A DNA stretch of 52,322 bases from Nanobdellati archaeon (GTDB lineage: Archaea > EX4484-52 > WAPT01). The stretch spans positions 1-52,322 of the forward strand of contig WAPT01000016.1 in the NCBI GenBank assembly GCA_015520605.1. The letters are read 5' to 3'. A program made the position numbers and the translations under genes. Below are positions 811 through 49,714 of the stretch, piece by piece (the stretch's first letter is position 1; each line of letters opens with the position of its first letter). The notes under the pieces were generated by a model that was not told where the DNA came from, did no database searches, and saw nothing but the letters and a program-made list of their open reading frames with translations.

Positions 811-1215
811 GTGATAGCGATGACGAAGGGTATGCATGTCATAATGGAATTGTATGGATGCCCTTCCGAAGCTATAGCTACGGTTCCTTCTGTGAAACAC
901 CTGATAGATATTGTGGTTGAGAGATCGGGAGTCAACCGTATAAGTGAGTTCTATCACCAGTTCAGACCCCACGGTGTTACAGGTGTTGTTTTGATTGCTG
1001 AATCACACATCTCCGTACATACCTGGCCGGAAAAGGGCTACGTCGCAATGGACATTTATACCTGTGGAAGTAAAGAGAAGGCCTTGAAAGCGGCCGAAGT
1101 CGCAATGGAGGTTTTCAGACCAAAGAAAATCGTTAGAAAAGATATGATGCGTGGGCTGGAGCATGAGACGGAAGTTGGCAGAGCTGTGGAAGTTACCGAA
1201 CACACGAAGTTATGA
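811..1215 (+). CDS. speD: S-adenosylmethionine decarboxylase proenzyme
   Basis: ESHISVHTWPEKGYVAMDIYTCG motif typical of class 1B AdoMetDC; start may be the internal ATG giving MHVIMELYG. Confidence 0.9.
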   Translation: MIAMTKGMHVIMELYGCPSEAIATVPSVKHLIDIVVERSGVNRISEFYHQFRPHGVTGVVLIAESHISVHTWPEKGYVAMDIYTCGSKEKALKAAEVAMEVFRPKKIVRKDMMRGLEHETEVGRAVEVTEHTKL

Positions 1216-8561: not shown

Positions 8562-9884
8562 ATGAAAGGGGATACTTGCAAAGTTTACATCGAAACTTAT
8601 GGATGTGCTGTAAACAGGAGTGACAGCGAGATAATGATGGGGCTGCTGAAGAAAGCCGGATACAGAATCGTCAAGGACTGGAGAGATGCCGATATAGTTA
8701 TTATAAACACATGTATTGTAAAGCACGCGACAGTTAACAGAATGCTTTATCGGATAAAGTTCTTTACCGAGAATTTCAATCCCCATCGTGTCATAGTCGC
8801 TGGCTGCATCTCCAAACCCTTCGGCAAAAAGGTGAAGGAAATAAACCCTCACGCCTCCCTGCTCGGCACTGATGTCATCAGCAGGGTGATTGATGCTGTC
8901 AAAGCTGTGCTATCCGGTAGGAGGGTTGAGCTAATTGAGGGCGAGGATGTAAAGACGGGAATGCCGAGAGAAAGGATCAACAAGAACATAGCAATAGTGC
9001 AGATAAGCTCTGGGTGCCTCGGTAACTGTGCTTTCTGCGCTACGAGATTTGCCAGAGGAAAGCTGAGAAGTTACCCGCCAGAAGATGTGGTGGAGGATGT
9101 AAGGGAAGCTGTAAACAGCGGTTGTAGAGAGATCTGGCTCACAAGTCAGGATAATGGATGCTACGGTCTGGATATTGGCACGAACCTTGCAGAACTTCTG
9201 GAAAAAATAACAAAAAAAGTAAAAGGCTACTACATGATACGAGTAGGAATGATGAATCCGCATTTTGCGAGACATATCCTCAATGATCTCCTCCGTGCCT
9301 ACCGTTCCAGAAAGATTTATAAGTTCATACATCTACCTGTGCAGTCCGGATCGAACAAGGTGCTCAGAATAATGAAGAGACAGCACACCGTTGAGGATTT
9401 TGTGGAGGTTGTTGAAGCTTTTAGGAAAGTTTTTCCTCGCGTTTCGGTCTGGACTGATGTAATTGTGGGCCATCCGGGAGAGGGGGAAGAAGACTTCATA
9501 CAAACTCTCGAACTGATGAAAAAGGTCAAGCCTGACTTCATAAATGTGTCAAGGTTTTCAAGTCACGGAATAACCGAAGCAAGTAAAATGCTCCAGCCGC
9601 CCAGTCAGATCAAGAAAGAAAGGAGCAGGAAGATGTCCAAACTCATGAAGCAACTCTCCTATATGAAAAACAGCGAATGGTTTGGATGGCGGGGTGTCGT
9701 GCTTGTAACGGATTACGACGAGAGCAAGAGGAACTGGATAGGGCACAATTATACTTATAAGCAGGTAATAATAAAGGATGAGAACAGAAGTCTTAAACTG
9801 GACGGAAAGTTCGTTAGAGTTAAGATTGTTGATTTCGGACACGCGCATCTGGAGGGAAAGGTACTGGAGGTGGATAGCAAATGA
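8562..9884 (+). CDS. tRNA methylthiotransferase, MtaB/CDKAL1-like radical SAM protein
   Basis: YIETYGCAVNRSDSEIM, SSGCLGNCAFCATRFARGKLRSYP (CxxxCxxC), HLPVQSGSNKVLRIMKR, C-terminal TRAM-like segment. Confidence 0.93.
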   Translation: MKGDTCKVYIETYGCAVNRSDSEIMMGLLKKAGYRIVKDWRDADIVIINTCIVKHATVNRMLYRIKFFTENFNPHRVIVAGCISKPFGKKVKEINPHASLLGTDVISRVIDAVKAVLSGRRVELIEGEDVKTGMPRERINKNIAIVQISSGCLGNCAFCATRFARGKLRSYPPEDVVEDVREAVNSGCREIWLTSQDNGCYGLDIGTNLAELLEKITKKVKGYYMIRVGMMNPHFARHILNDLLRAYRSRKIYKFIHLPVQSGSNKVLRIMKRQHTVEDFVEVVEAFRKVFPRVSVWTDVIVGHPGEGEEDFIQTLELMKKVKPDFINVSRFSSHGITEASKMLQPPSQIKKERSRKMSKLMKQLSYMKNSEWFGWRGVVLVTDYDESKRNWIGHNYTYKQVIIKDENRSLKLDGKFVRVKIVDFGHAHLEGKVLEVDSK

Positions 9885-10279
9885 GCACGAATTCATGTAT
9901 CTTCTGTAATATATTGAGGGAGAAAAGAGACAACATCGTTCTTTCCAACAAGCACTGTTTTGCTATGTTTGATGGATATCCAGTTTCTAAAGGACACATA
10001 CTAATAATACCAAAAAGGCATGTCTCTTCTTTTTTCCAGCTGGAGTTGGATGAGGTTGTGGACGCTTACTTACTTCTTCAAGAAGCCAAAAAACTTCTGG
10101 ATAAAAAGTTTAAGCCCGCTGGCTACAACATCGGAGTTAACATTGGAAGTGCTGCAGGTCAGACAGTTTGGCATGTACATATACATTTGATCCCTCGTTA
10201 CAAAGGGGATGTTGAGAACCCCACCGGCGGAATAAGGAACATCTTCCCTGATAAAGGCGATTACACTAAAATATTGTAA
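9881..10279 (+). CDS. HIT family protein
   Basis: FCNILRE...GHILIIPKRHVSSF...GQTVWHVHIHLIPRYKGD (HxHxH); ATGA overlap with the preceding gene. Confidence 0.94.
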   Translation: MSTNSCIFCNILREKRDNIVLSNKHCFAMFDGYPVSKGHILIIPKRHVSSFFQLELDEVVDAYLLLQEAKKLLDKKFKPAGYNIGVNIGSAAGQTVWHVHIHLIPRYKGDVENPTGGIRNIFPDKGDYTKIL

Positions 10280-10303
10280 GAGCGAGTCGGTTCATTCTCG
10301 CTC
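10280..10303. terminator. Inverted repeat GAGCGAG...CTCGCTC between convergent genes
   Basis: 7-bp stem spanning the convergent gene ends. Confidence 0.35.
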
Positions 10304-11248
10304 GAACTGAGGTAGATTAGATATCCACTCCTCAAGTCTCTCAAGCACATCCTTAACAGTCTGCTGTTGCAAATAGTTAGTAATACCCTCCTCCGCTAGC
10401 ATACTCTCAGAAAGGGGCAAAGCCACACCATCAACAGTCTTTGCGTCCTTCATGTGAAGGGAAAATGGGCACCTCGCAAGCTTTCCGCCTGGCGTCTGGC
10501 TCGGGTCTATCACTATTCTTCCTTCTCCTTTTTCGTGCCCTCCAATGATCGGCACGTCAGTCTCCTTTCTGACCCTTGCTATAAGCCTGTTCAGGATGTT
10601 AAACAGAGAAGGTGTGGTTCTTGAGTAGCTGAGGTATTTTTCATAAAAGGAGTGGTTAAGTCTCTTCTTCGGAAATATGTAAATGTGGAAGGATGAACCG
10701 GTCCACATAACAAACGTTGTAAAATCACCCACAAGGCCTCTGAAGTTTTCATCTTCCTTTATCGCAACCAGCAAAGCCTGAGTAACTCGCCTTGCCTGCT
10801 CTGTGGTGATTCCTTTACCTCTATCTATATCTATGAATATCCTCTCTATTGGTCTATCCTTCCCCTCTCCGTTTGTAGCATAAAAATAGTCGGCCAGCTT
10901 TCTTGGTGGAAAGTACTCCCATGCCTTGCGCTGCACATCATTAAGCCTGTGCTTTACCTCTCCGAGATGGTGTGCTCTAAGCCTGAAAAACCCCTCCCAG
11001 CTTTCAGCCAGAGAAGCGATCTCGCTAACAAAAAACTGCGGGAGCTTGCTCCCTCTCTTTATTATCATCGGGCCTCCAGGTATCCAGATCCTGGATGCGA
11101 GCTCCTTACCCTTCAGAAAACTGAACAGGTACGAGGATACCGCTGAATAGTATGGCAGCACATCGAGGAAATCAAAGGGTTTGAGCGGATCCTTACTACT
11201 TCTCAAAAAATTGAGAAGCTCAAAACTATTGGGGCTTTCACTTTCCAT
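10292..11248 (-). CDS. Archaeo-eukaryotic primase (AEP)-like protein; start chosen at MESESPN (ORF track 10292..11383)
   Basis: IFIDIDRG (DxD), GSSFHIYIFPK (sxH), RIVIDPSQTPGGKLARCPFSLHMK. Confidence 0.7.
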   Translation of the reverse strand: MESESPNSFELLNFLRSSKDPLKPFDFLDVLPYYSAVSSYLFSFLKGKELASRIWIPGGPMIIKRGSKLPQFFVSEIASLAESWEGFFRLRAHHLGEVKHRLNDVQRKAWEYFPPRKLADYFYATNGEGKDRPIERIFIDIDRGKGITTEQARRVTQALLVAIKEDENFRGLVGDFTTFVMWTGSSFHIYIFPKKRLNHSFYEKYLSYSRTTPSLFNILNRLIARVRKETDVPIIGGHEKGEGRIVIDPSQTPGGKLARCPFSLHMKDAKTVDGVALPLSESMLAEEGITNYLQQQTVKDVLERLEEWISNLPQFERE

Positions 11249-11529
11249 ACCATTCAAGCTGTGAACACACATATATATTTTAATTGTGCCAAGAGGAAAA
11301 GTAAGAATGATGGGGTAAGAAGCATACTTTAACTCTCTGCTGACATGCGGAGCGCTTCCCTTCTCGTTCCCTGCAGGAGTCAATTTCCAGATTTATTTTT
11401 CCCGCGAAGAGCACTGCAGAGCTCAGGCCTGTTGATGCTTTGAAGTATGAGCGATTTTCGAAAAGAGCAGGAATCAGCTCTTGAAGTTCTAACAATCCGC
11501 ATAAAAACTTTATCAGCCTAAATAGGAGT

Positions 11530-12477
11530 ATGGTATTATTCAAAAAGAAGAGGCGCAGTCTTCTGGAAATAAAGAAGCTTCGGTTTGGGTATAAGGAAAG
11601 ATCTGTGCTCAAAGGAGTTGACCTCTCCATAAAAGCCGGTAGGATCCTTGCTCTTGTTGGACCGAGTGGCTCTGGCAAAAGTACTCTGCTCAAGATCATG
11701 GCCGGAGAGCTCAGAAAATCCGAAGGGAGGATAATCAGAAAAAGAAAAGGTCTGATATCGCATGCAAAAATAGCATACGTTCCTCAAGAAATTGCTTTAC
11801 TACCAAACCTCACGCTGGAAGAAAACATAATCATTTTTGGAAACATTTTCGGTGTGAGCAGCAAGAAAGCGATAATGAAAGGTAGAAAGCTTGCTTCTTC
11901 ACTTGAAATGGAAGACAGACTGAACGGAAAGGTCAGCACGTTTTCCGGCGGGCAGAAGGTGAGAGCAAACATTATCTGCTCTCTTCTTCACGACCCAGAT
12001 ATCTTGCTGCTGGATGAGCCTTTCACCGGATTGGACTTCGGGAACAGAATGCTTCTCTGGAAGTTTTTAATGGGGTTAAAGCGGGCCAGAAAGGCTGTGT
12101 TGCTCACAACTCACAATCTGGAAGAAGCTGGAAAGTTCTGTGATGAAATTGCCATCCTTAAGGATGGGAAGATAATTGTGAGGGGTGATGAGGATAGAAT
12201 AAGGCGAGTTTTGAAAGCAAGGATATGGGTGGAAATGGAAATAAAGAATGTCTCTAACATGTCGAAACTGATACCCAAGATTAAGAAAATATGTGAGAAA
12301 AACGAAATATTTCTTGTGGAGTATCCAACGTTGAAGAGGCTTGCTTTCATGATGGAGAACGAAGAGAAGATAAGTTTGATTGAAGCTCTGCTAAGAAAAG
12401 ATGGTGTGAGGTTTAAGGTGGTCGAACTTAAGACACCAACGCTGGACGAAACGTTTCTTAAGGTGAGTGCTGCATGA
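11530..12477 (+). CDS. ABC transporter ATP-binding protein
   Basis: Walker A GPSGSGKST, signature FSGGQ, Walker B ILLLDEP. Confidence 0.95.
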   Translation: MVLFKKKRRSLLEIKKLRFGYKERSVLKGVDLSIKAGRILALVGPSGSGKSTLLKIMAGELRKSEGRIIRKRKGLISHAKIAYVPQEIALLPNLTLEENIIIFGNIFGVSSKKAIMKGRKLASSLEMEDRLNGKVSTFSGGQKVRANIICSLLHDPDILLLDEPFTGLDFGNRMLLWKFLMGLKRARKAVLLTTHNLEEAGKFCDEIAILKDGKIIVRGDEDRIRRVLKARIWVEMEIKNVSNMSKLIPKIKKICEKNEIFLVEYPTLKRLAFMMENEEKISLIEALLRKDGVRFKVVELKTPTLDETFLKVSAA

Positions 12478-13718
12478 TCATTCACAGAATTGCGGGACTT
12501 CTGAAAAAGGACTGGAAACTTTTGATGGCGAACAAAAGCTATTTCATACTTGCGATAATTTTACCAATGCTCGTCGGAGCAGTGTTTGTTCTGGCTCTAC
12601 ATTACTCCCCAAAAAATGTGAGAGTAGGAGTGTGCGGCAATGTGACCTTGCCCCTGAACGGGATGGGTGGTGATGTGATTCTCATCCCGCTAAATCCCGA
12701 AGGTTCGAACTGCACCGCCGTCATGCTGGAAAATGTCAGAAGCGGGAGGGTAAATGTTGGTATCGTGTTTCCGCAGGATTTTGAGGAGAAAATTAAGAGG
12801 TACAAGAGAGCCAAGATCGTGCTGGTTGTGGATAACACCAAGCCCGCCATGAGAAGTCTTGCAGAAAATCTTGCTGAAAAAATGGTGGAAGGATATGCAT
12901 ACCATCTGAGGTCTTCCCTGAAGGAGAATATGAAGCAGAAAATAAACCTGCTGAAAAGCGCGCTGATCATTCTGCAGTCCGTAACCACTTCCGCGCCATA
13001 CGGAAGCTTGCTTTCCCATACCATAGAGCTCGTGATGGAAAGGTTTGATGACCTGCAGAATCTGGACCTTGAGTTTTTTGTGAGACCGGCCAAGGTGGTT
13101 GTCCTTTACACTAATCCCGACCTTAACGAGCTGGGTTCTGTGTTCATCTACACATTCCCTGTGGTGGCGTTCTTTAGCATATCCATGCTTGCTGCGGTTG
13201 GTGTGATTTTCGAGAGAAAGAACGGTTTTTTCAGCAGGATGGCATCGGCATCCATACCTTACCCCCTCTATCTGCTCAGCAAGCTCGTGATTTTTGGCGT
13301 GCTGGCGCTTATCCAGTTCCTCACCCTCCTTTTTCTCTTCATCTCAGGAGGCGGGAGGTATCCGCTAAACCTGAGCTCCGTTCTCCCGACACTTGAAGCT
13401 CTCCTCATAATCTCCTCGCTTTATGCTTTGATTGGAGTTATTATTGGGAATCTCGCAAGGGAGAGTGGAGAAGCAATATTGATATGCCTTGTGCTCGCGC
13501 TCCCCATGACTTTCTTAACACAACTTTTCTATCCCGTCGACCTTCTGCCGGGAAAGATTGCAAACTTTATCAGCTTAATGCCGGTAAACTACGGTGGGAA
13601 GTTACTGAAAGCGGGAATGCTCAGCACAGAATCTGTGCTGACATGGTCGGGGCTCACCAATATCGCTGTGATGGCGCTCCTCGCACATATCTCTTATATG
13701 GTGAGTGGTAAAAAGTGA
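12474..13718 (+). CDS. ABC-2 type transporter permease
   Basis: Multiple TM segments, ABC-2 C-terminal architecture, overlaps the ATPase gene. Confidence 0.9.
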   Translation: MIIHRIAGLLKKDWKLLMANKSYFILAIILPMLVGAVFVLALHYSPKNVRVGVCGNVTLPLNGMGGDVILIPLNPEGSNCTAVMLENVRSGRVNVGIVFPQDFEEKIKRYKRAKIVLVVDNTKPAMRSLAENLAEKMVEGYAYHLRSSLKENMKQKINLLKSALIILQSVTTSAPYGSLLSHTIELVMERFDDLQNLDLEFFVRPAKVVVLYTNPDLNELGSVFIYTFPVVAFFSISMLAAVGVIFERKNGFFSRMASASIPYPLYLLSKLVIFGVLALIQFLTLLFLFISGGGRYPLNLSSVLPTLEALLIISSLYALIGVIIGNLARESGEAILICLVLALPMTFLTQLFYPVDLLPGKIANFISLMPVNYGGKLLKAGMLSTESVLTWSGLTNIAVMALLAHISYMVSGKK

Positions 13719-13735
13719 GAACGTGAGGGTTTAAC

Positions 13736-14365
13736 ATGATAAGAACGGCTGTTCCACCAAAAAGAGATGTGACGCTGATCATAGAGCATCTGGAAGAAAA
13801 GTTAACGGAATGGCTTCTGCTCGAATACAGAAACGCGAGCAAGTGGTGGAACGGTAGAGTGATATATACCAATGTGAGGAGCGAGGAGGATGTCACCACC
13901 CTTAAACCTCTGGGTGAGGTCAGGAGGGAGAGATTCTTGGAGGTGGTGGGAAAGGACGATGCCACAATAATCCTCGACCCAATGGCGAAGGAGACATTAA
14001 GACCGGAGGACTTTAACGGTGTCAGATGGGTTGTTATCGGTGGGATATGTGGTGATGTCGAATTTGATGGGAGAACTTCGAGGCTGATAAGCTCAACCTC
14101 GATGGAAATGCTGAGAAATATAAGGCTCAGAAACCTCGGAAAAGTTCATTTCCCGATAGATCAAGCCGCAGTTGTTGCAAGGCTTATCATGGAGGGAAAG
14201 AGACTGGATGAAATAGATGTTAGAGTGGGTGTTGAAATTGTGCTTGAGGAGGGCACAAGCTTCAGGAGGGTTGTTGAGCTACCTTACGGTTACGTTGTTC
14301 TTGATGGCAAGATTCAGTTTGCCGATGGTTTTGTTGAGTTCCTTAAAAGAGGGTGGGATCTGTGA
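13736..14365 (+). CDS. SPOUT-type methyltransferase, DUF431/Sfm1-like
   Basis: LIIEHLEEKLTEWLLLEY...ILDPMAKETL...WVVIGGICGD...SMEMLRNIRLRNLG...DQAAVVARLI. Confidence 0.75.
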   Translation: MIRTAVPPKRDVTLIIEHLEEKLTEWLLLEYRNASKWWNGRVIYTNVRSEEDVTTLKPLGEVRRERFLEVVGKDDATIILDPMAKETLRPEDFNGVRWVVIGGICGDVEFDGRTSRLISSTSMEMLRNIRLRNLGKVHFPIDQAAVVARLIMEGKRLDEIDVRVGVEIVLEEGTSFRRVVELPYGYVVLDGKIQFADGFVEFLKRGWDL

Positions 14366-14916
14366 AGGATTTCAGGATTGCCATTACGGGAAGGCCGGGA
14401 GTTGGAAAAACAACCCTGGTTAAGCGGTGTGCTGAACTGCTGAGGGAAATGGGTGTGAGAGCTGCCGGCTTCTATACCGAAGAGGTCAGAAATAAGAATG
14501 GTGTGAGAGAGGGTTTCGTCGTTGTGGATGTAGTCTCTCGGTACACATTCGAGCTTGCTAGGAGCATGGAGAGCTTTCGTTACAGCCAGGCTCTTCCGCA
14601 TGTTGGAAGGTATGCGGTGTTTGTTCGAGAGTTTGAGAACTACATCGAAACTCTGGAACGAGAGATGCGGAATGCTGATGTAATGGTCATAGATGAAGTG
14701 GGGCCAATGGAGCTTCTCAGCCGCCGGTTCATTCAGGTTATGGAAAGAATTATTGCGAAGCCACGCTGGATTGTGACTCACCATATTAGGGTGAAGCACC
14801 CCGTCATAAAAAAGCTTGAAGCTCATTCAACCCTTAAGGTTAAGCTAACCACAACAAACAGAGACGCTGAAAGGGAACGTGTGCTCAAACTGCTCCGAGA
14901 AGCTTTAAAAGAATAG
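14353..14916 (+). CDS. THEP1-type nucleoside-triphosphatase
   Basis: GRPGVGKTTLVKR...GFYTEEVR...VMVIDEVGPMELLS. Confidence 0.92.
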   Translation: MGSVKDFRIAITGRPGVGKTTLVKRCAELLREMGVRAAGFYTEEVRNKNGVREGFVVVDVVSRYTFELARSMESFRYSQALPHVGRYAVFVREFENYIETLEREMRNADVMVIDEVGPMELLSRRFIQVMERIIAKPRWIVTHHIRVKHPVIKKLEAHSTLKVKLTTTNRDAERERVLKLLREALKE

Positions 14917-16315
14917 CTCCTATTCCGAGAAAGCTCAGGAATCCGAAAACGTCCGTAAAGGTTGTGAGTATAACCGTGGATGAGGATGCGGGGTCACTTC
15001 CCATTCTCTTCAGGAGGAGAGGTATCGTAGCTCCAGCAAACGCAGCGACCATCATGTTTATGAACATCGCCAGAACAAGCGCAATAGCTATGACCATGCT
15101 TCCTTTCCAGAGGACTGCAAACATGGCAGCTATGATTCCCACAATTAAACCGTTTATGGCAGCAACAATCACCTCCTTTTTTATTACCCTGAAAAAGTCA
15201 GATGGTGTGATCTCCCCCAAGGCGAGCGACCTCACCACTATGGCCATGGTTTGTGTGGTCGCATTACCACCTTCTCCAGCAACGATAGGCATGAAGATGG
15301 CAAGAAGCACAAAGGTCTTGAGCACATCCTCGAAGAGGTTTACAACACTCGCGGCAAGAAACGCTGTGAAAAGATTTATCATTAGCCAAGGTGTCCTGTT
15401 TCTAAGGGCTTTTATAATGGGATCGAACACCCTCTCTTCCCTTTCAAGAGAGAACATCTTGAAGAGGTCCTCAGCGTGCTCTTCCTCCATTATCTTGAGC
15501 GCTTCATCGATTGTTATAACACCAACAAGCTTGTTGTTCTCAATTACTGGGATTGACATGCATCTGTGTTTTCTAAAGAGATTTACCACCTCCTCCCTGT
15601 CTGTTGTCACACTCACCACAGGCTTTGCGTGAGTCATCACGTCCCTAATCCTCGCTGAGGGTTCGGCCGTGACGAGTTTTTCCAACTCAGCTCTTCCAAG
15701 CAGCCTTCCAGCTTCATCAATCACGAATACTTCCTTCGTGTAGGTTGCTGGAGACGCCTTCTTTATCCTGTCCAGCACGTTTTGAACACTCTCTTCCGGA
15801 CATGCTACAACTATCTCCTTCTGCATTATACCTCCAGCGACCTCCTTCGAATAGCGCAACTGCTTCACTATATGCCTCTTCTTTCTTTCGGGGAGGTAAG
15901 AGAGCACAGTATCTATGCGCCTCTCGGATTTCAGGGAGCGCAGAATTCTGCATGCATCATCTGAAGCGAGGTGCCTTACGATATCAGCAATATCTTTATC
16001 GGAGAGTGTTAAGAGCAGTTCCCTCCTCTCCTCCTCGCTGAGAAGCAGCAGCACATCCGCGCGGCTTTTGCTGTCAAGCAACTGAAAAATTTTAGCTTTT
16101 CTTTCCGGACCAACTCTTCTGAGTATGTGCACTATCTCGGACGGGCTCATCTTTGAAAGCAGGACTTCCGCTTCTTTTCTGAGACCTTTCTCCAACAGGT
16201 AAATTATTCTGGGTAGTATGGCACTCATCAAAAGTATTCTCTTCAAGCTTCCATATAATATTTTGGGTAGAAATGTTGGAAAAGGACGTTTTTCGATCGG
16301 AACATAAGGAACCAT
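14885..16315 (-). CDS. mgtE: MgtE-family magnesium transporter
   Basis: MgtE N domain, two CBS domains, AGEGGNATTQTMAIVVRSLALGEI; start likely at an internal Met. Confidence 0.93.
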   Translation of the reverse strand: MVPYVPIEKRPFPTFLPKILYGSLKRILLMSAILPRIIYLLEKGLRKEAEVLLSKMSPSEIVHILRRVGPERKAKIFQLLDSKSRADVLLLLSEEERRELLLTLSDKDIADIVRHLASDDACRILRSLKSERRIDTVLSYLPERKKRHIVKQLRYSKEVAGGIMQKEIVVACPEESVQNVLDRIKKASPATYTKEVFVIDEAGRLLGRAELEKLVTAEPSARIRDVMTHAKPVVSVTTDREEVVNLFRKHRCMSIPVIENNKLVGVITIDEALKIMEEEHAEDLFKMFSLEREERVFDPIIKALRNRTPWLMINLFTAFLAASVVNLFEDVLKTFVLLAIFMPIVAGEGGNATTQTMAIVVRSLALGEITPSDFFRVIKKEVIVAAINGLIVGIIAAMFAVLWKGSMVIAIALVLAMFINMMVAAFAGATIPLLLKRMGSDPASSSTVILTTFTDVFGFLSFLGIGAILLKLLGAV

Positions 16316-42511: not shown

Positions 42512-43099
42512 GTGATTCACGATACTGCTTGGGTTGTTGGTGGCTTACCCATGGAGACAGAGGACGACCCCCATCCTCAGCACGGTTTTTATATATGGGG
42601 CGGAGATAGGGACAGAGTTTTTGCTCACTACAGTTGTAACGGTTTCTCTAAATTAGAGGATAATGGTGAAGAAGGAAACGACGATGTTGACATTCAGAAA
42701 TTCTTGGATGAAATCTTCGGCGATGATGAAACAATAAATATCGTAGTACTGGGAAAACACAAACGGGGATCTCCCGAATACGGTGTCTGCGTATATACAA
42801 GAAATGAGCCCTATTTGGTTATGAAAGGTGAAGAGATATACAGGGCAATCAAAAACAACATTAACGGTAAAAGTGAGAGCGGTTTACTTACCACCAGAGA
42901 GGATATTCGCAAACCGAATGGTGGTGAAAATAATTCTTGGGTGAAAGTGGGCGAGATTTGCGGGAAGTGTCTGCCGCTTGAAGTTGCGAAAGAAGATATT
43001 GCTTTAGAAATGATGAAAGCATGTCTTATGAAATCCTACAGAAATAATTATCCTGACGCGGGAGAGATCCAACCATATGCCATGTGCAGAAAAACCTGA
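42512..43099 (+). CDS. Hypothetical protein
   Basis: 195-aa ORF with no recognised family. Confidence 0.5.
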   Translation: MIHDTAWVVGGLPMETEDDPHPQHGFYIWGGDRDRVFAHYSCNGFSKLEDNGEEGNDDVDIQKFLDEIFGDDETINIVVLGKHKRGSPEYGVCVYTRNEPYLVMKGEEIYRAIKNNINGKSESGLLTTREDIRKPNGGENNSWVKVGEICGKCLPLEVAKEDIALEMMKACLMKSYRNNYPDAGEIQPYAMCRKT

Positions 43100-43415: not shown

Positions 43416-43712
43416 TTATACCTTAAGAATTTCGTGTATCAGTCTGTATTTCTCGACTTCTGCCGGCCATGCAACGAGGGCTCTGTCTATCCTTTTCACC
43501 TTTATTAAGTCTTCCCTTGCCAGTTGGTCAAAGTGATACTTGATTTTCGAAATCACACCTTTCTGTTTTTTCGGATCTTCCGTCCAAATTCCAAGTTCCT
43601 TGGCAACTTCAGTTACATGTGTGGGCCATTTCTGATTTATTATCTCAAGAATTCTATCTCTGAGTTGCTTTCCACTCAAATTATCCCCCATAGTTTTAGA
43701 TTTTGAATACAA
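43416..43712 (-). CDS. Winged-helix transcriptional regulator-like protein
   Basis: HVTEVAKELGIWTEDPKKQKGVISKIKYHFDQLAREDLIKVKRID. Confidence 0.65.
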   Translation of the reverse strand: MYSKSKTMGDNLSGKQLRDRILEIINQKWPTHVTEVAKELGIWTEDPKKQKGVISKIKYHFDQLAREDLIKVKRIDRALVAWPAEVEKYRLIHEILKV

Positions 43713-43981
43713 AAATTTTAATTATGTGAAGGGCTGTGTTGAAGGTGTGTGAACTATATTGTCATTTGGCTCGATCGCTCTTCGTTTTTATAGCAGTATT
43801 CATTTCTGTAAAAGTTGCTTACAAGATTGTTGTTTGAACCATCGGATTTTAAATGTGGTAACAAATTACTCGACGTGTTTTTTACACATATGGTTCTCTT
43901 TGCTTTTTTCTTGCTTCCTAATAAATTCCCAGTATGTGCGTTCGGAAAATTATATATAGTTACACTTCATTTTAACTCTAT

Positions 43982-44413
43982 ATGAAAATAAAGCACTCGT
44001 TTGTATCGCTGCTGGATCTTCCTGAAGTTCTGCCATTTGCAGTTTTTCCAGGAGAAAAAGAACCAAAAGACAAAGAGCTCTTTGATTTTGTTGACGCGAT
44101 TGCCGAACAATTTGGAGAGGAGATATACTATATAGGAAACGACATAATTGAAGATAAATTTTATGAGAGGTTTTTGTTTGAAAAAGGCGGATTCCTTGAG
44201 GTGATGGTGCAGGCGCCTGCTGCCATAATAGCACATTTTGTGGAGCGTTCCAGAGCTTTTAAGTTTGCAAGAGCATTGAAGCGGGTGATACTTTCAATTG
44301 ACAGGCCGGAAGCTAAACTGCTTGCAGATGGAATAGAGGTTTCAAGTGAGAATGAGGAAGCACTGGATTACCAGACGTGGTCGAAGCTTAAAAAAGTGAG
44401 GGAAGTTTTGTGA
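43982..44413 (+). CDS. Hypothetical protein upstream of the V4R gene
   Basis: TATA-like box just upstream; 7-nt gap to the next gene. Confidence 0.6.
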   Translation: MKIKHSFVSLLDLPEVLPFAVFPGEKEPKDKELFDFVDAIAEQFGEEIYYIGNDIIEDKFYERFLFEKGGFLEVMVQAPAAIIAHFVERSRAFKFARALKRVILSIDRPEAKLLADGIEVSSENEEALDYQTWSKLKKVREVL

Positions 44414-44420
44414 TGTTCCT

Positions 44421-44903
44421 ATGCACCCACTAGCCAAAAAGCTCCTGGTTTCAAGACAGCTGCAGATGGAAGAAGGCGATCTCAGAGTGCTTGGTGATAA
44501 TATGATCATACTTCCCGCAGATGTTCTTCTCGAATTTAATGAGCTTTTAGATGAAAAAATCGTGTACAGAATTGGCGAGATAATTGGGGACAGAATGGCT
44601 TCTACCCTGAAGAAATACGGTATAAGTGGAATGAAGCTCGTGGATTTTTGTCTGAATTTGATGTCAATGTATGGATGGGGTAAGCCATCCATAGTAAGAG
44701 TGGGCGAAAAAACGTTTTTAATGGTTGAGCATTCTGTTATCGCTCTGAAAGCCATAGAAAAACAGAAAAAATATAGATGCTGTGGCTTGCTTGCAGGAAT
44801 ATTTGCCGGATTGTTTTCAAACGCTATGGGCAAAAAAATGACTGCCAGAGAAGTTAAGTGCTTCGCCCTTGGAGAGAAGTTCTGTGAGTTTGAAATTTTT
44901 TAG
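44421..44903 (+). CDS. V4R (4-vinyl reductase)-like domain protein
   Basis: RIGEIIGDRMASTLKKYG...GLLAGIFAGLFSNAMGKKMTAREVKCFALGEKFCEFEIF. Confidence 0.75.
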   Translation: MHPLAKKLLVSRQLQMEEGDLRVLGDNMIILPADVLLEFNELLDEKIVYRIGEIIGDRMASTLKKYGISGMKLVDFCLNLMSMYGWGKPSIVRVGEKTFLMVEHSVIALKAIEKQKKYRCCGLLAGIFAGLFSNAMGKKMTAREVKCFALGEKFCEFEIF

Positions 44904-45016
44904 TTTTTGGTATGGTTTAAAACTTTAAAATTCGCTTTTTGTCGAGCATCTTGAACTTGTTTTGTGTAACTTTTATTAATGGACGGTGTTTAATTCTGAA
45001 ATGAGTTTGATTTTGA

Positions 45017-45033
45017 CTCAAATCGTATTTGAG
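45017..45033. promoter_or_regulatory. Palindrome CTCAAAT-CGT-ATTTGAG, candidate operator of the FIST-luxE-luxC-like operon
   Basis: Perfect 7-bp arms ending about 14 nt before the start at 45048; adjacent further TGAGTTTGA half-site. Confidence 0.45.
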
Positions 45034-45047
45034 AGTAGATTTAAACT

Positions 45048-46460
45048 ATGGTGAAAAAGATGGGCAAATACATCCATGCCGGCACAGGCATAAGCAGTGC
45101 TGAGGATCCCACTCAGGCGGGGAAAGAAGCTGTTGAGATGGCTCTGGAAAAGCTTAAGGAAGATGGTGGTAAAAAACCTGATTTTGCGGTTGTTTTCTGT
45201 TCAGGCGGAAAATATGGAAAAAACGACAAGACCATCAAAAAGTTCGTTGATGCTGTGCATGAAGCACTGACGTCAGCAAACAAAGATGTTAAATGGATAG
45301 GATGCACAACTGCTGGCGAGATCAGTAATTATGGTATCAATTTCGGTAGCGCTGTTGTAGGGGTTATTGAATCGGATTATATACGCTGGGGGGTGGGTTA
45401 CGCCGAAGGTGCAAAGGAAAAACCATATGAAGCTGGAAAGAAAGCTGCGAAGAGAGCTCTTGATGATTTGAAAGTTGACAAATATTTAGATGCATACATT
45501 TCATTCCAAATGTTGAAAAAGAAACATCCTGGTGAGTTAGTGAAGAACAAACAGTTCGTTATGCTTACTTTAAACCCAGGATTTACTCTAAAGGAGAGCG
45601 GTTGGGAAAATGATATTCTAGATGGAATTAAGGATGTTGTGGGAGTATTCACCCCAATTGTAGGTGGATCTGCCACGGACGATATGCGTTTTCTTGAAAA
45701 TTTCCAATTTGTTAACGGAATAGTCTCTAATAATTTGTGTATATGTGCTGCATTGTACAGCAATCTGAAGCTAGGTTTTGGACTAGCACATGGATTCAAA
45801 CCTACTGAGAAGACAGGCATTGTTACGGATGCAGAAGGAAACGTTCTAAAGAGAATTAACAATAAGCCAGCACTTGACGTGTATTCTAGTTTTGTTGGAA
45901 TGAAAAAAGAGTATTTAATAGATGGGTTCAAATCGCTCGAGCGACTTAAAAGCATGCCTCTCGCATTAATTTCATTTACATCTAAAATGAAGCTTACAGA
46001 AACCTTATTGAAAAAATCAAAGTTTATGCAACTAATAGCCAAAAATCCTTTAGGTGTCCCTGATATAAATGGAATATATTGGCTAAAAGTGGTAAACAAT
46101 TGCTTAGCTAATGATGCACTTTTATTAAATTCTAAAATTGAAAAAAATCTACCCATAGTTCTCATGAAATTTGACAAAAAGTCGGTGTTTTCTGCAACAC
46201 TTGATTCAATTGAAAGTAGTTGTAAGGATATGAAATCTCCAAAATTTGCGATAATTTTTGAATGTGCTGGAAGATTACTACTAATTGGGAAAGAAAACAT
46301 TTTTAAGTGTTACGAATTAGTTAATAAAAAGTATGGAAATATGATGTATGTAGGGTTTTATAGTGGTGGTGAAATTGGACTCACCAGAAAAACCTCAAGT
46401 GGGATACATGCTTATACGTGTACTTCATTAACAATTGATGATGAGCTAATACTTGAATAA
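45048..46460 (+). CDS. FIST N/C-domain sensory protein
   Basis: AGTGISSAEDPTQAGKEAVEMAL...WIGCTTAGEISNYG...GVFTPIVGGSATDDMRF; C-terminal ECAGRLLLIG...MMYVGFYSGGEIG. Confidence 0.85.
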   Translation: MVKKMGKYIHAGTGISSAEDPTQAGKEAVEMALEKLKEDGGKKPDFAVVFCSGGKYGKNDKTIKKFVDAVHEALTSANKDVKWIGCTTAGEISNYGINFGSAVVGVIESDYIRWGVGYAEGAKEKPYEAGKKAAKRALDDLKVDKYLDAYISFQMLKKKHPGELVKNKQFVMLTLNPGFTLKESGWENDILDGIKDVVGVFTPIVGGSATDDMRFLENFQFVNGIVSNNLCICAALYSNLKLGFGLAHGFKPTEKTGIVTDAEGNVLKRINNKPALDVYSSFVGMKKEYLIDGFKSLERLKSMPLALISFTSKMKLTETLLKKSKFMQLIAKNPLGVPDINGIYWLKVVNNCLANDALLLNSKIEKNLPIVLMKFDKKSVFSATLDSIESSCKDMKSPKFAIIFECAGRLLLIGKENIFKCYELVNKKYGNMMYVGFYSGGEIGLTRKTSSGIHAYTCTSLTIDDELILE

Positions 46461-46471
46461 AACCACATGAG

Positions 46472-47659
46472 GTGTGTTTTATGGACAAACTGGAGGCGTA
46501 TAGGCAGCTTGTTGATAGAATGAATGATTTAATTTCCAATGAACATCCTTTCAAAAATAATCATAAAAAAATAAAACTTCTTAGAGATGTTATAAACTTC
46601 CATTTTGATCACAATGAATTTTATAGGAAAGTGTTGAGTATAATACCCAGTGACGGGGATGTGGAAAATATAAAAGAACCTTCTGATGTACCTCCTTTAC
46701 CCACTCATGTTTTTAAGCGGAGTGTAGGGAAGTATGCTGACTTTGTTACGGTTAGAGAGATACCCTTCAAGTATTATACGTCAAGTGCTACTGGTGGGGA
46801 TCCAAGTCTGGTCGCAAGAACTGATGATGATAAGGAGATAATGAAATCCGTATATTATGACCGATACGTAGATTTTTTGGGAGATAATGGTTTTGGAGAA
46901 AAATTATTCGCTTTTGCACCGCCTCATCCAAAACTAGGCACAGCACAGATCGCTCAGATCTACGCAAAGATAAATGAAAATGTTCCTGTGGAGTACTTGG
47001 TAGAGTTAGATGAAAAGGGTGCGAGAGTGGTTCCAGAACTTTTATTGAAAGAGTTACCTAAGCTAGAGAAATCTGATGTGGTGTTTACGGTGGGCGGTTC
47101 TGTTCCTCTTACATACCACACCCTTTTAAAGTTCAAGGAAAAGGGTCTAAGTTGGGATTTTAACGGACGATGTAAAATTGCCGTTGGCGCTGGAGGTTGG
47201 GATGGTGTTAAAGGAAGTATCAATTTACCGCCCATTTCCAAAAAAGATTTCATAGACCTTATGTATCAACTGTTTAGGACACCTTCCGATAAAATTGTGG
47301 ATGGATATGCAACATCAGAAATATCAGTGTTATTTCCAGGTCACTGGTCTGAGGAGCACCAAGATTTTCTATATCATACCCCTGTTGCTTATGGTAATGT
47401 ACTTATTAGAGATTCTAGAAACTATGAGATTCTAGAAGGAGAAGGATCAAGAGGACTCATTAATATAATCAGCCCACTTGCACCGACTACAGCAGGTACA
47501 AATTCCCTCGTTGTTTCTGATATAGTCGAGCTTGTAGCGGAGGATAAATGTGATGAATGCGGGAGAAGAGGTCCTGTATTCAGGTACATATCAAGAGATA
47601 AATCCTCTTACAAGACAGGATGTGGTGCGATGGTTCTGAAATATCTCAAGGAACTATGA
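46472..47659 (+). CDS. LuxE-like acyl-protein synthetase/acyl ligase (ANL-like)
   Basis: YYTSSATGGDPSLVAR nucleotide-binding loop, VGAGGWDG, DGYATSEIS, terminal RYISRDKSSYKTGCGAMVL; CDECG Zn-knuckle-like motif. Confidence 0.85.
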   Translation: MCFMDKLEAYRQLVDRMNDLISNEHPFKNNHKKIKLLRDVINFHFDHNEFYRKVLSIIPSDGDVENIKEPSDVPPLPTHVFKRSVGKYADFVTVREIPFKYYTSSATGGDPSLVARTDDDKEIMKSVYYDRYVDFLGDNGFGEKLFAFAPPHPKLGTAQIAQIYAKINENVPVEYLVELDEKGARVVPELLLKELPKLEKSDVVFTVGGSVPLTYHTLLKFKEKGLSWDFNGRCKIAVGAGGWDGVKGSINLPPISKKDFIDLMYQLFRTPSDKIVDGYATSEISVLFPGHWSEEHQDFLYHTPVAYGNVLIRDSRNYEILEGEGSRGLINIISPLAPTTAGTNSLVVSDIVELVAEDKCDECGRRGPVFRYISRDKSSYKTGCGAMVLKYLKEL

Positions 47660-47681
47660 TATTTCTTTAGCGGGGGGTTTT

Positions 47682-49166
47682 ATGATGAAAGAAGAATACA
47701 AATTACCTATTTATCTGCAAGGAAAATTGGAGGAAAGCGATACCACCCATCTTATCGCGGAGCTGGATGGAAGAAAAGTTATTTCATGTATACCCTCTCC
47801 AGAAGATGTTTATAATGCAGTTCTTCGTTTAAAAGATGTGTCAAGAACTCTGGAAGACAGATACACTATACGTGAACTTGCAGAGATATTAGATGGTGCG
47901 AGAGATGCTTTCTTTGGCACCGACAGGTATGCAGATACAGTTTCGATACTCGAGATAACAACAGGCAGATCTCGAGAAGTTGTTAAAGAAGATCTTAACA
48001 AACTAGAGGAGTTTATGGATAAACACTACCTCCAGGCAATGATTAAAGATGCTGAGGGAGGATACAGAGGTATATTTGATAGACCTGTCTCCAAAATAAT
48101 GGATCTTGTCTATAAACGACGAAAACCATTAGGGGTTGTGTTTCATCATCTTGCAGGGAACTCGCCCATGGTCACAACTAGTGTGGTCATTGGAGTTTTA
48201 ACCAAAAATGCCAACCTCGTAAAGACAGGTAGCGGGGATCCTGCGACTAGTGTTTATTTGGCCGATGCGATAAATGATGTGGATGAAAAAGTAGGCGAAA
48301 CGATTGCTGTGTTTTATTGGCCTGCAACGATCGATGGTGAATTAAATGAGATATATTACAGAATATTTCCAGAAACTCCAGCAGAGGTTTTGATAGACGG
48401 CGTTGCCTGTTGGGGTGGTGAAACTTCAATAAACACAATAAAGAAATTAGCAAACGCATCCGGAGTCAAGATAATAGAGCACGGGCCAAAATACAGTATT
48501 GACATAATGTTTGATGTTCCAGCTGAAGATTCTATTTACAGAAATTTACTTAGAGATTCTATCGTGTCCCATGACCAAAACGCATGTATAAGCACCAGAG
48601 TCATCTTCGTCAAGGGTGATGGTAAAAAGGTGGCTGAGAATATAGCCCGTTATTTTGAGAAGATAAAAGAGGAGTACCCAAACACCTCCTCAACAGTAGG
48701 AGAAGTCATAGGGAAAAGGATAGTTTATTTGAAAAGAGAAGGTGCAAAAATATACACACCTCCAAAGAACAGTCCAGATTGGACAGTGGTCTATTTACCT
48801 AAAAATACAGAATTAACCCTAAATGATATTGACGCTTGTATGAACAGGTTTCTTGTAGTTAAGGAAATAGAGTCTTTGGATGATATAAGTGAGTTTATAA
48901 GAAGAAATAATCTGGAAAGATATATGCAAGTAGCAGGGATTTATCCAGATACCTATCTTTCAAATCCTGAGGTTACCGAAAGACTCTGGAATTTGGGTTT
49001 TTCGAAACTATCTAAGATAGGCGAGCATCAGATTTTCTATCCAGGGGCATCCCATGACGATGTTGTTCCTTTGCTGGAATTCACACGATATGTAACCGCA
49101 GATAAACATAACCTAGTAACGAAAACGCTTAAGAGACTATATGGATTGGTATCAAGAAACAGATAA
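47682..49166 (+). CDS. LuxC-like acyl-CoA/acyl-protein reductase (ALDH superfamily)
   Basis: FHHLAGNSPMVTTSVVIGVLTKNANLVKTGSGDPATS, catalytic-Cys region SHDQNACISTRVIFVKG. Confidence 0.88.
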   Translation: MMKEEYKLPIYLQGKLEESDTTHLIAELDGRKVISCIPSPEDVYNAVLRLKDVSRTLEDRYTIRELAEILDGARDAFFGTDRYADTVSILEITTGRSREVVKEDLNKLEEFMDKHYLQAMIKDAEGGYRGIFDRPVSKIMDLVYKRRKPLGVVFHHLAGNSPMVTTSVVIGVLTKNANLVKTGSGDPATSVYLADAINDVDEKVGETIAVFYWPATIDGELNEIYYRIFPETPAEVLIDGVACWGGETSINTIKKLANASGVKIIEHGPKYSIDIMFDVPAEDSIYRNLLRDSIVSHDQNACISTRVIFVKGDGKKVAENIARYFEKIKEEYPNTSSTVGEVIGKRIVYLKREGAKIYTPPKNSPDWTVVYLPKNTELTLNDIDACMNRFLVVKEIESLDDISEFIRRNNLERYMQVAGIYPDTYLSNPEVTERLWNLGFSKLSKIGEHQIFYPGASHDDVVPLLEFTRYVTADKHNLVTKTLKRLYGLVSRNR

Positions 49167-49583
49167 AATCAGGATTATAGTACATGATTGATACCACAAC
49201 CAACAAAACTTCTCAACAATCCCGATTTTCTGTTCTAATCACATGTGTTGAGTAAATAACCACCTCCATAACGGCATAAATCTTATTCTCCTACCATCCA
49301 TTCTCTACCTGTTCTCACAACCTCAAGTTAACATCATCAAATCTCTCCATTTCAAAACATGTAATCCATAAAATCACACAAGATCTATCTATTCAAAAAA
49401 CAAAACCCGGCAATCATAAAAGCAACTTATCAGCGCTTCCGAATGAAAAATACTTGGCATTCTTAGGATAGCTATATTCTGTTAAAAAAGACGAATATCA
49501 CGTCTGAGCTTTTAGAAGCTTCTTCTTTTACTTTCGCGATTACCTCTCCAAGTAAACAGTTACAAAATTACTTGAAGGGATGG

Positions 49584-49714
49584 TGGGGGCGCAGGGAATC
49601 GAACCCTGGTCAGTGGGTGTCCCCTCAAAAGCACACCCACGTGCTAATCATCCTTGCGTCATCGCTCCAGACTCCGATCTGGAGCCCACCGTGATACCAC
49701 TACACCACGCCCCC
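49584..49714 (-). tRNA. tRNA-Trp (CCA anticodon) with 60-nt intron at 49619..49678
   Basis: GGGGGCG/CGCCCCC acceptor; anticodon loop CTCCAG|intron|A; bulge-helix-bulge CTCC-AGA / GGGG-ACA at position 37/38. Confidence 0.93.

Follow-up and report, generated by a model that had tools for sequence, protein, structure and literature searches.

A recurrent FIST, ligase and reductase locus of small archaeal genomes with an exchangeable sensor-enzyme block and a possible role in signalling

Bacterial pherotype loci such as ComQXPA combine matched signal-making and receptor genes that vary strongly between close relatives (PMC4408185). Sensors of the FIST family have also been described; one known example, NosP, belongs to a nitric oxide pathway (PMC12570481), and VpsV has been put forward as the sensor that works with a quorum-sensing kinase of Vibrio (PMC4398556). 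LuxE and LuxC belong to the luxCDE fatty acid reductase (structure 7xc6), and LuxE-LuxC pairs are present outside luminescence in flagellar glycosylation islands (PMC7874193, PMC4875605). Here we describe a locus of a Nanobdellati archaeon (assembly GCA_015520605.1, contig WAPT01000016.1) in which genes for a FIST sensor protein, a LuxE-like ligase and a LuxC-like reductase lie beside genes for a winged helix-turn-helix (wHTH) protein, a 143-aa protein and a V4R-domain protein. The contig (C16, 52,322 nucleotides, hereafter the window) is part of an 863 kb genome that is 90.7% complete, and the whole analysis is genomic, using metagenome assemblies. These families are known singly, and their combination and the block exchange reported below appear to be undescribed in the literature searched. 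Our literature search returned no paper naming LuxE, LuxC and FIST together, and LuxC, LuxE, FIST and V4R are all absent from the main text of a paper on quorum-sensing genes of the candidate phyla radiation (CPR) and DPANN.

The archaeal cassette resembles ComQXPA in that the putative ligand region of the receptor and the synthase genes co-vary at a fixed locus with constant flanks. However, ComQXPA uses a modified peptide signal and a membrane kinase receptor whereas the archaeal locus encodes FIST and acid-reducing enzymes, and by name the gene families of the cassette are unrelated to those of ComQXPA and agr. The likeness to luxCDE lies in adjacent LuxE and LuxC family members with aligned cysteines, but the archaeal proteins fall below the equivalog cut-offs, have no luciferase at the locus and keep company with FIST, V4R and KaiC. 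Like NosP/NosK and VpsV/VpsS, the cassette has a stand-alone FIST sensor, and in one cassette (L083) a histidine kinase gene adjoins it (PMC12570481, PMC4398556). In contrast to those systems, the cassette FIST goes with biosynthetic enzymes, usually together with KaiC, V4R and wHTH proteins, and the window FIST scores below the NosP equivalog of NCBIfam (65.9 bits against 450). Unlike the pairs in flagellar glycosylation islands, the archaeal cassette is not adjoined by glycan or fatty-acid genes.

Comparison with a sister genome of the same genus (G002) reveals that most of FIST, the ligase and the reductase form an exchangeable block. Homologous DNA in the window and G002 extends as far as 45334 and begins again at 49193, 27 nt past LuxC. 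The surrounding HerA, MscS, XTPase, wHTH, 143-aa, V4R, MazG, CysM and nitroreductase proteins are 88-99% identical, and so are FIST residues 1-95 (94%), while identity falls to ~37% over the remainder of FIST and to ~25% in the ligase and reductase. The G002 block encodes an AMP-binding ligase and an aldehyde dehydrogenase (ALDH) instead. One G002 contig runs ~550 bp into other DNA past the FIST break, a continuation that is either an assembly chimera or a real rearrangement; the stretch (L088 9022-9574) holds an unrelated open reading frame (ORF), Cgi121-like by eye, that occurs once in the genome.

A second, independent case is found on single contigs, with no gap, at the same locus of two Woesearchaeota, one with LuxE/LuxC (L062) and the other with a PaaK-like ligase and ALDH (L064). 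Their transmembrane (TM), KaiC, V4R, 143-aa, wHTH, pta and ack proteins are 70-82% identical, as against 25% for the enzymes, and FIST is ~84-94% identical over the first 100 residues and 14-50% past residue ~126. Their DNA is similar up to FIST residue ~91 and again from 15 nt ahead of the 143-aa gene. Both swaps begin at FIST residue ~91-96, their shared 5' breakpoint, and finish at the 3' side shortly past the reductase gene. The breakpoint lies in a conserved FIST motif, W(I/V)GCT.xGE, which may be a natural site for homologous recombination. Contigs of Aenigmatarchaeota of the same family stop at the 143-aa gene, so they provide no third FIST comparison. A smaller mosaic separates L064 from L069, where synonymous divergence is raised in FIST 141-235 and 301-438 and in ligase 81-280, with no such rise in the reductase or the neighbours. 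Because synonymous divergence rises with amino-acid change in this pair, recombination rather than point selection explains the variable stretches; positive selection was rejected, as the ratio of nonsynonymous to synonymous divergence (dN/dS) is <1 in all computable stretches. The exchange of the FIST body and the enzymes as one block argues for variable chemistry at the locus and for a sensor that fits its enzymes.

Although the window and sister FIST proteins are 94% identical over residues 1-95, the window FIST body is closest to those of Aenigmatarchaeota L057/L058 (46/41%) and the sister FIST body to those of L059/L063/L068 (42-44%). The window LuxE and LuxC are both closest to Asgard-like sequences. 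Across 14 cassettes, FIST-body distance tracks ligase distance (partial r 0.26, p 0.01) and reductase distance (partial r 0.32, p 0.0035) when distances of the FIST N-segment, the 143-aa protein and V4R are controlled for. Divergence of the FIST body therefore follows the enzymes and not the neighbours.

The window enzymes score far above the Pfam gathering cut-offs (LuxE PF04443, 71.4 bits against 24.9; LuxC PF05893, 170.8 against 21). Cys384 of the ligase aligns with C364 of the LuxE chain in 7xc6 and Cys302 of the reductase with Cys 285 of the LuxC chain, residues that we take to be the acyl-transfer cysteines. Since these cysteines match, both enzymes appear able to activate and reduce acyl groups. 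Luminescence was rejected as a function on NCBIfam equivalog scores well under the cut-offs (LuxE 36.9 against 550 bits, LuxC 102.2 against 750). In agreement with the original prediction, which had seen no luciferase genes, Pfam found no luxA or luxB product among the ten locus proteins scanned, the remaining genome not having been searched. No relative was found on viral contigs with LuxC. An 820-aa LuxE-LuxC fusion is encoded in a genome of the same order (L039 4491-6953), followed by FabG-like and acyltransferase-like genes and with no FIST.

The arrangement recurs widely. FIST, ligase and reductase are found in ~20 small archaeal genomes (Aenigmatarchaeota, Nanohalarchaeota, Woesearchaeota and others), accompanied by the 143-aa protein, V4R, wHTH and a KaiC-like ATPase in an order that varies according to our custom profiles. 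A scan of the genome collection with a FIST alignment gave 15 small-genome archaeal loci, including Aenigmatarchaeota, Nanohalarchaeota, Woesearchaeota and Nanoarchaeota, and one bacterial locus; the nearest to the window (L061) is from a DPANN group archaeon. The bacterial locus, from a Planctomycete (L072), has no ligase or reductase match among the matches listed, and none of seven bacterial LuxE loci inspected has FIST within the stretch covered (up to ~8-10 kb) in a narrow sample of 251 genomes around a Planctomycete; other bacteria may still carry the trio. LuxE itself is rare in archaea, exceeding the family cut-off in 16 of 394 genomes. All six genes and a KaiC-like ATPase are present in Nanohalarchaeota L045/L059 and L051/L067. 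The best marker of the cassette is the 143-aa protein, encoded by 14 genomes in three samplings. Because other cassette genes adjoin it in all 14, recurrence is far above chance; in three of them (G243, G520, G532) contig ends cut off the full set. The FIST-LuxE-LuxC trio also occurs at six loci in another archaeal phylum, whose genomes are 1-6 Mb in size, and neighbouring gelsolin- and Roadblock-like genes suggest that this phylum is the Asgard archaea. LuxE-LuxC pairs without FIST recur in one Asgard-like family (L201-L205, L210, L211).

The enzymes vary within a common scheme, an adenylating-type ligase being paired with an ALDH-superfamily reductase in every variant with identified genes. 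For example, L086, L123 and sister G002 have an AMP-binding ligase and an ALDH by Pfam and no LuxE or LuxC proper. For L064, Pfam was applied to the ligase, and the dehydrogenase was recognized by sequence reading and a custom profile; in L084, L085 and L065 Pfam recognizes the dehydrogenase alone and the ligases are weak custom-profile matches; in L068 Pfam recognizes neither. An additional aminotransferase gene is present in L065, L070 and L084. L083 adds an LDH-like protein with a weak receiver domain and a histidine kinase directly upstream of FIST, and its run of histidine kinase, FIST, ligase, ALDH, LDH/receiver-like, 143-aa and V4R genes (8790-16012, minus strand) is a two-component version of the cassette. 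The original prediction would have been refuted if FIST, LuxE and LuxC were neighbours in no relative; instead, their order recurs in relatives as well as in the six Asgard-like loci. Its LuxE/LuxC pair describes the window correctly, but many other cassettes have a PaaK-like ligase and ALDH. The ligand-responsive pathway for acid activation and reduction that it proposed fits everything found here; the block exchange and the variability of the chemistry had escaped it.

The wHTH, 143-aa, V4R and KaiC proteins with FIST residues 1-95 behave like a common output, and the FIST body, ligase and reductase behave like a matched unit of recognition and synthesis. Since this split into constant and variable parts matches bacterial pherotype loci, and since FIST sensors are known, we tentatively favor a small-molecule signal that is made and read by one locus. 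Further support comes from conservation of the cassette in several phyla of small-genome archaea, the co-divergence of FIST body and enzymes, the mosaic of L064 and L069, the constant pairing of ligase with reductase and the kinase gene next to FIST in L083. The cassette would then be a self-contained, pherotype-like signalling locus with exchangeable specificity, a proposal to which we give a little less than an even chance. The ligase would adenylate a carboxylic acid and hand the acyl group via its own cysteine to the reductase, which would release an aldehyde; in cassettes with an added aminotransferase or dehydrogenase gene, the end product would instead be an amine or alcohol. The FIST body would bind the product of the enzyme pair, and the constant N-terminal residues would relay the signal to the 143-aa protein, V4R, the KaiC-like ATPase and the wHTH regulator. 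Receptor and synthase, being matched to each other, would be replaced jointly by recombination, giving rise to signal "dialects" in close relatives. That the signal is an aldehyde-type or derived pheromone by which DPANN cells communicate or recognize kin, with matched FIST receptors and dialects spread by block recombination, is a more speculative extension, possible but doubtful.

Several observations weigh against signalling. FIST of G002 falls at two contig ends, which we infer to be joined; the co-divergence test covers 14 loci whose enzymes are very diverged, making distances rough; the Asgard-like trio sits among other neighbours; and the cassettes showed no gene for export or import. 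The organisms are uncultured, and the case for signalling comes from their genomes, which show the families of the genes, a neighbourhood that is conserved, exchange of the block and acyl-transfer cysteines that are intact; the direction of the reaction, the ligand, FIST as its receptor, the output and signalling from cell to cell are inferences. Furthermore, a substrate-inducible metabolic operon would likewise keep sensor and enzymes matched. In such an operon FIST would sense an incoming carboxylic acid and switch on the enzymes for its reduction, and both would be exchanged when the available acid changes, which accounts for their joint exchange. Small-molecule sensors of the FIST family are common in archaea, and the aminotransferase or dehydrogenase genes of some cassettes could lengthen the pathway. 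However, acid reduction by LuxE and LuxC consumes ATP and NADPH, a cost that is odd for catabolism in genomes of 0.6-1.5 Mb; there is no consistent downstream enzyme; and the putative output (V4R, KaiC, wHTH and the 143-aa protein) varies less than the chemistry. We regard an inducible operon as the main rival, but rather unlikely. It differs from signalling in the ligand of FIST, which is the substrate in the former and the product in the latter.

A locus that stays in place while its chemistry is rapidly exchanged also fits conflict, as does the patchy distribution of the cassette (3/92 and 5/97 genomes). Allelopathy or self-recognition, in which a toxic aldehyde or derivative would act against hosts or competitors with FIST and V4R for sensing and immunity, is nevertheless improbable, given that no PADLOC defence family is present and no toxin, immunity or export gene was seen in the cassette. 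Anti-phage defence was rejected, PADLOC being essentially negative with a sole weak match (Orf5 for the wHTH protein, E 0.005). The least probable explanation is a protein acylation switch, in which the LuxE-like ligase would acylate one of the cassette proteins (FIST, V4R or the 143-aa product) and the reductase would deacylate it. LuxE belongs to an acyl-protein synthetase family and a C-domain cysteine of FIST is invariant in 17 aligned sequences, but this cysteine is probably a general FIST_C feature and many cassettes have PaaK-like ligases that lack the LuxE C-terminal cysteine region.

The signalling proposal bears on the question of partner or kin sensing in ultra-small symbiotic archaea, and a compact, conserved locus that would couple small-molecule synthesis to a receptor makes this question testable in vitro. 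Each natural variant would be a ready enzyme-receptor pair, with the swaps serving as specificity controls provided by nature. Such a role would give the LuxE and LuxC families a function beyond light production, and would suggest a defined class of ligands to test on FIST, V4R and archaeal KaiC proteins.

Features of the cassette region in the window (Table 1) agree with the original prediction in position, in shared direction from FIST to LuxC and in the 11 and 22 nt gaps of FIST-LuxE and LuxE-LuxC; the former becomes 20 nt with the likely LuxE start, which GAGGTG precedes. Its V4R, FIST, LuxE-like and LuxC-like calls all exceed Pfam gathering cut-offs. A protein that it listed as unknown is real and in place, although its value as cassette marker was overlooked, and the gene set (wHTH, V4R, FIST, LuxE, LuxC) stands but lacked the usual KaiC-like member.

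Table 1. Coordinates of the cassette features in the window
Feature	Position	Strand	Basis or remark
Small wHTH-like DNA-binding protein	43416..43712	-	41-61% identity to other cassettes, 89% to sister; no Pfam match
Candidate TATA box upstream of 143-aa gene	43950..43957	+	Sequence reading; same box in sister genome
143-aa cassette marker protein	43982..44413	+	No Pfam family; alignment; confined to cassette-bearing genomes
V4R-domain protein	44421..44903	+	Pfam V4R E 5e-11; profile matches MJ1460 structure 2osd
Perfect inverted repeat CTCAAAT-CGT-ATTTGAG, possible operator	45017..45033		Directly upstream of FIST; partly kept in sister
FIST sensor protein, N and C domains	45048..46460	+	Pfam FIST_N E 1e-35, FIST_C E 9e-16
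Exchangeable block (FIST from residue ~96, ligase, reductase)	45335..49192	+	DNA comparison with sister genome
LuxE-like adenylating acyl ligase	46472..47659 (likely start ATG 46481)	+	Pfam LuxE E 8e-20; Cys384 aligned
LuxC-like acyl reductase, ALDH superfamily	47682..49166	+	Pfam LuxC E 6e-50; Cys302 conserved

The AlphaFold model of FIST is confident (predicted local distance difference test (pLDDT) 92, predicted template modelling score (pTM) 0.91), and its best structural matches are the FIST protein FBXO22 and Toblerone-fold cyclic amide hydrolases. A second FIST gene lies elsewhere in the genome (G000:C14:31512-32708; L119 9602-10741) with an 87-aa ORF behind it; ORFs of ~90-110 aa follow FIST in L125 and L137 and stand on both sides of it in L126. 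The inverted repeat was rejected as a general operator, as half of it is kept in the sister and it is missing from seven other cassettes.

The wHTH and 143-aa proteins, though without a Pfam family, are conserved in the same neighbourhoods. The model of the 143-aa protein (pLDDT 82) weakly resembles an S-adenosylmethionine (AdoMet) decarboxylase fold (best PDB match 2iii, E 6.7e-4, template modelling score 0.46-0.53), and we claim no function for the protein; an apparent AdoMet decarboxylase is read from sequence elsewhere in the window (811-1215, plus strand). The V4R protein scores below the NCBIfam MsvR cut-off (38.8 against 220 bits, for the V4R part alone). No KaiC gene adjoins the window cassette, but the genome has one elsewhere (C15:72976), whose product shares 54% identity with the L059 cassette KaiC. 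A PilB-like ATPase with an apparent intein (L051 6539-9958) adjoins KaiC-like and TadC-like genes and the cassette; a general link to type IV pili or the archaellum was dropped, since PilB-like ATPase and KaiC adjoin just two Nanohalarchaeota cassettes.

Transfer RNA (tRNA) genes lie on both sides of the cassette region. The exchangeable block ends ~390 nt before one with an intron (49584-49714, minus strand), which is matched by Rfam, was missed by ARAGORN and reads as tRNA-Trp. Upstream of the cassette, an orphan 195-aa ORF (42512-43099, plus strand) with no Pfam match is 73% identical to its sister counterpart, compared with 88-99% for its neighbours.

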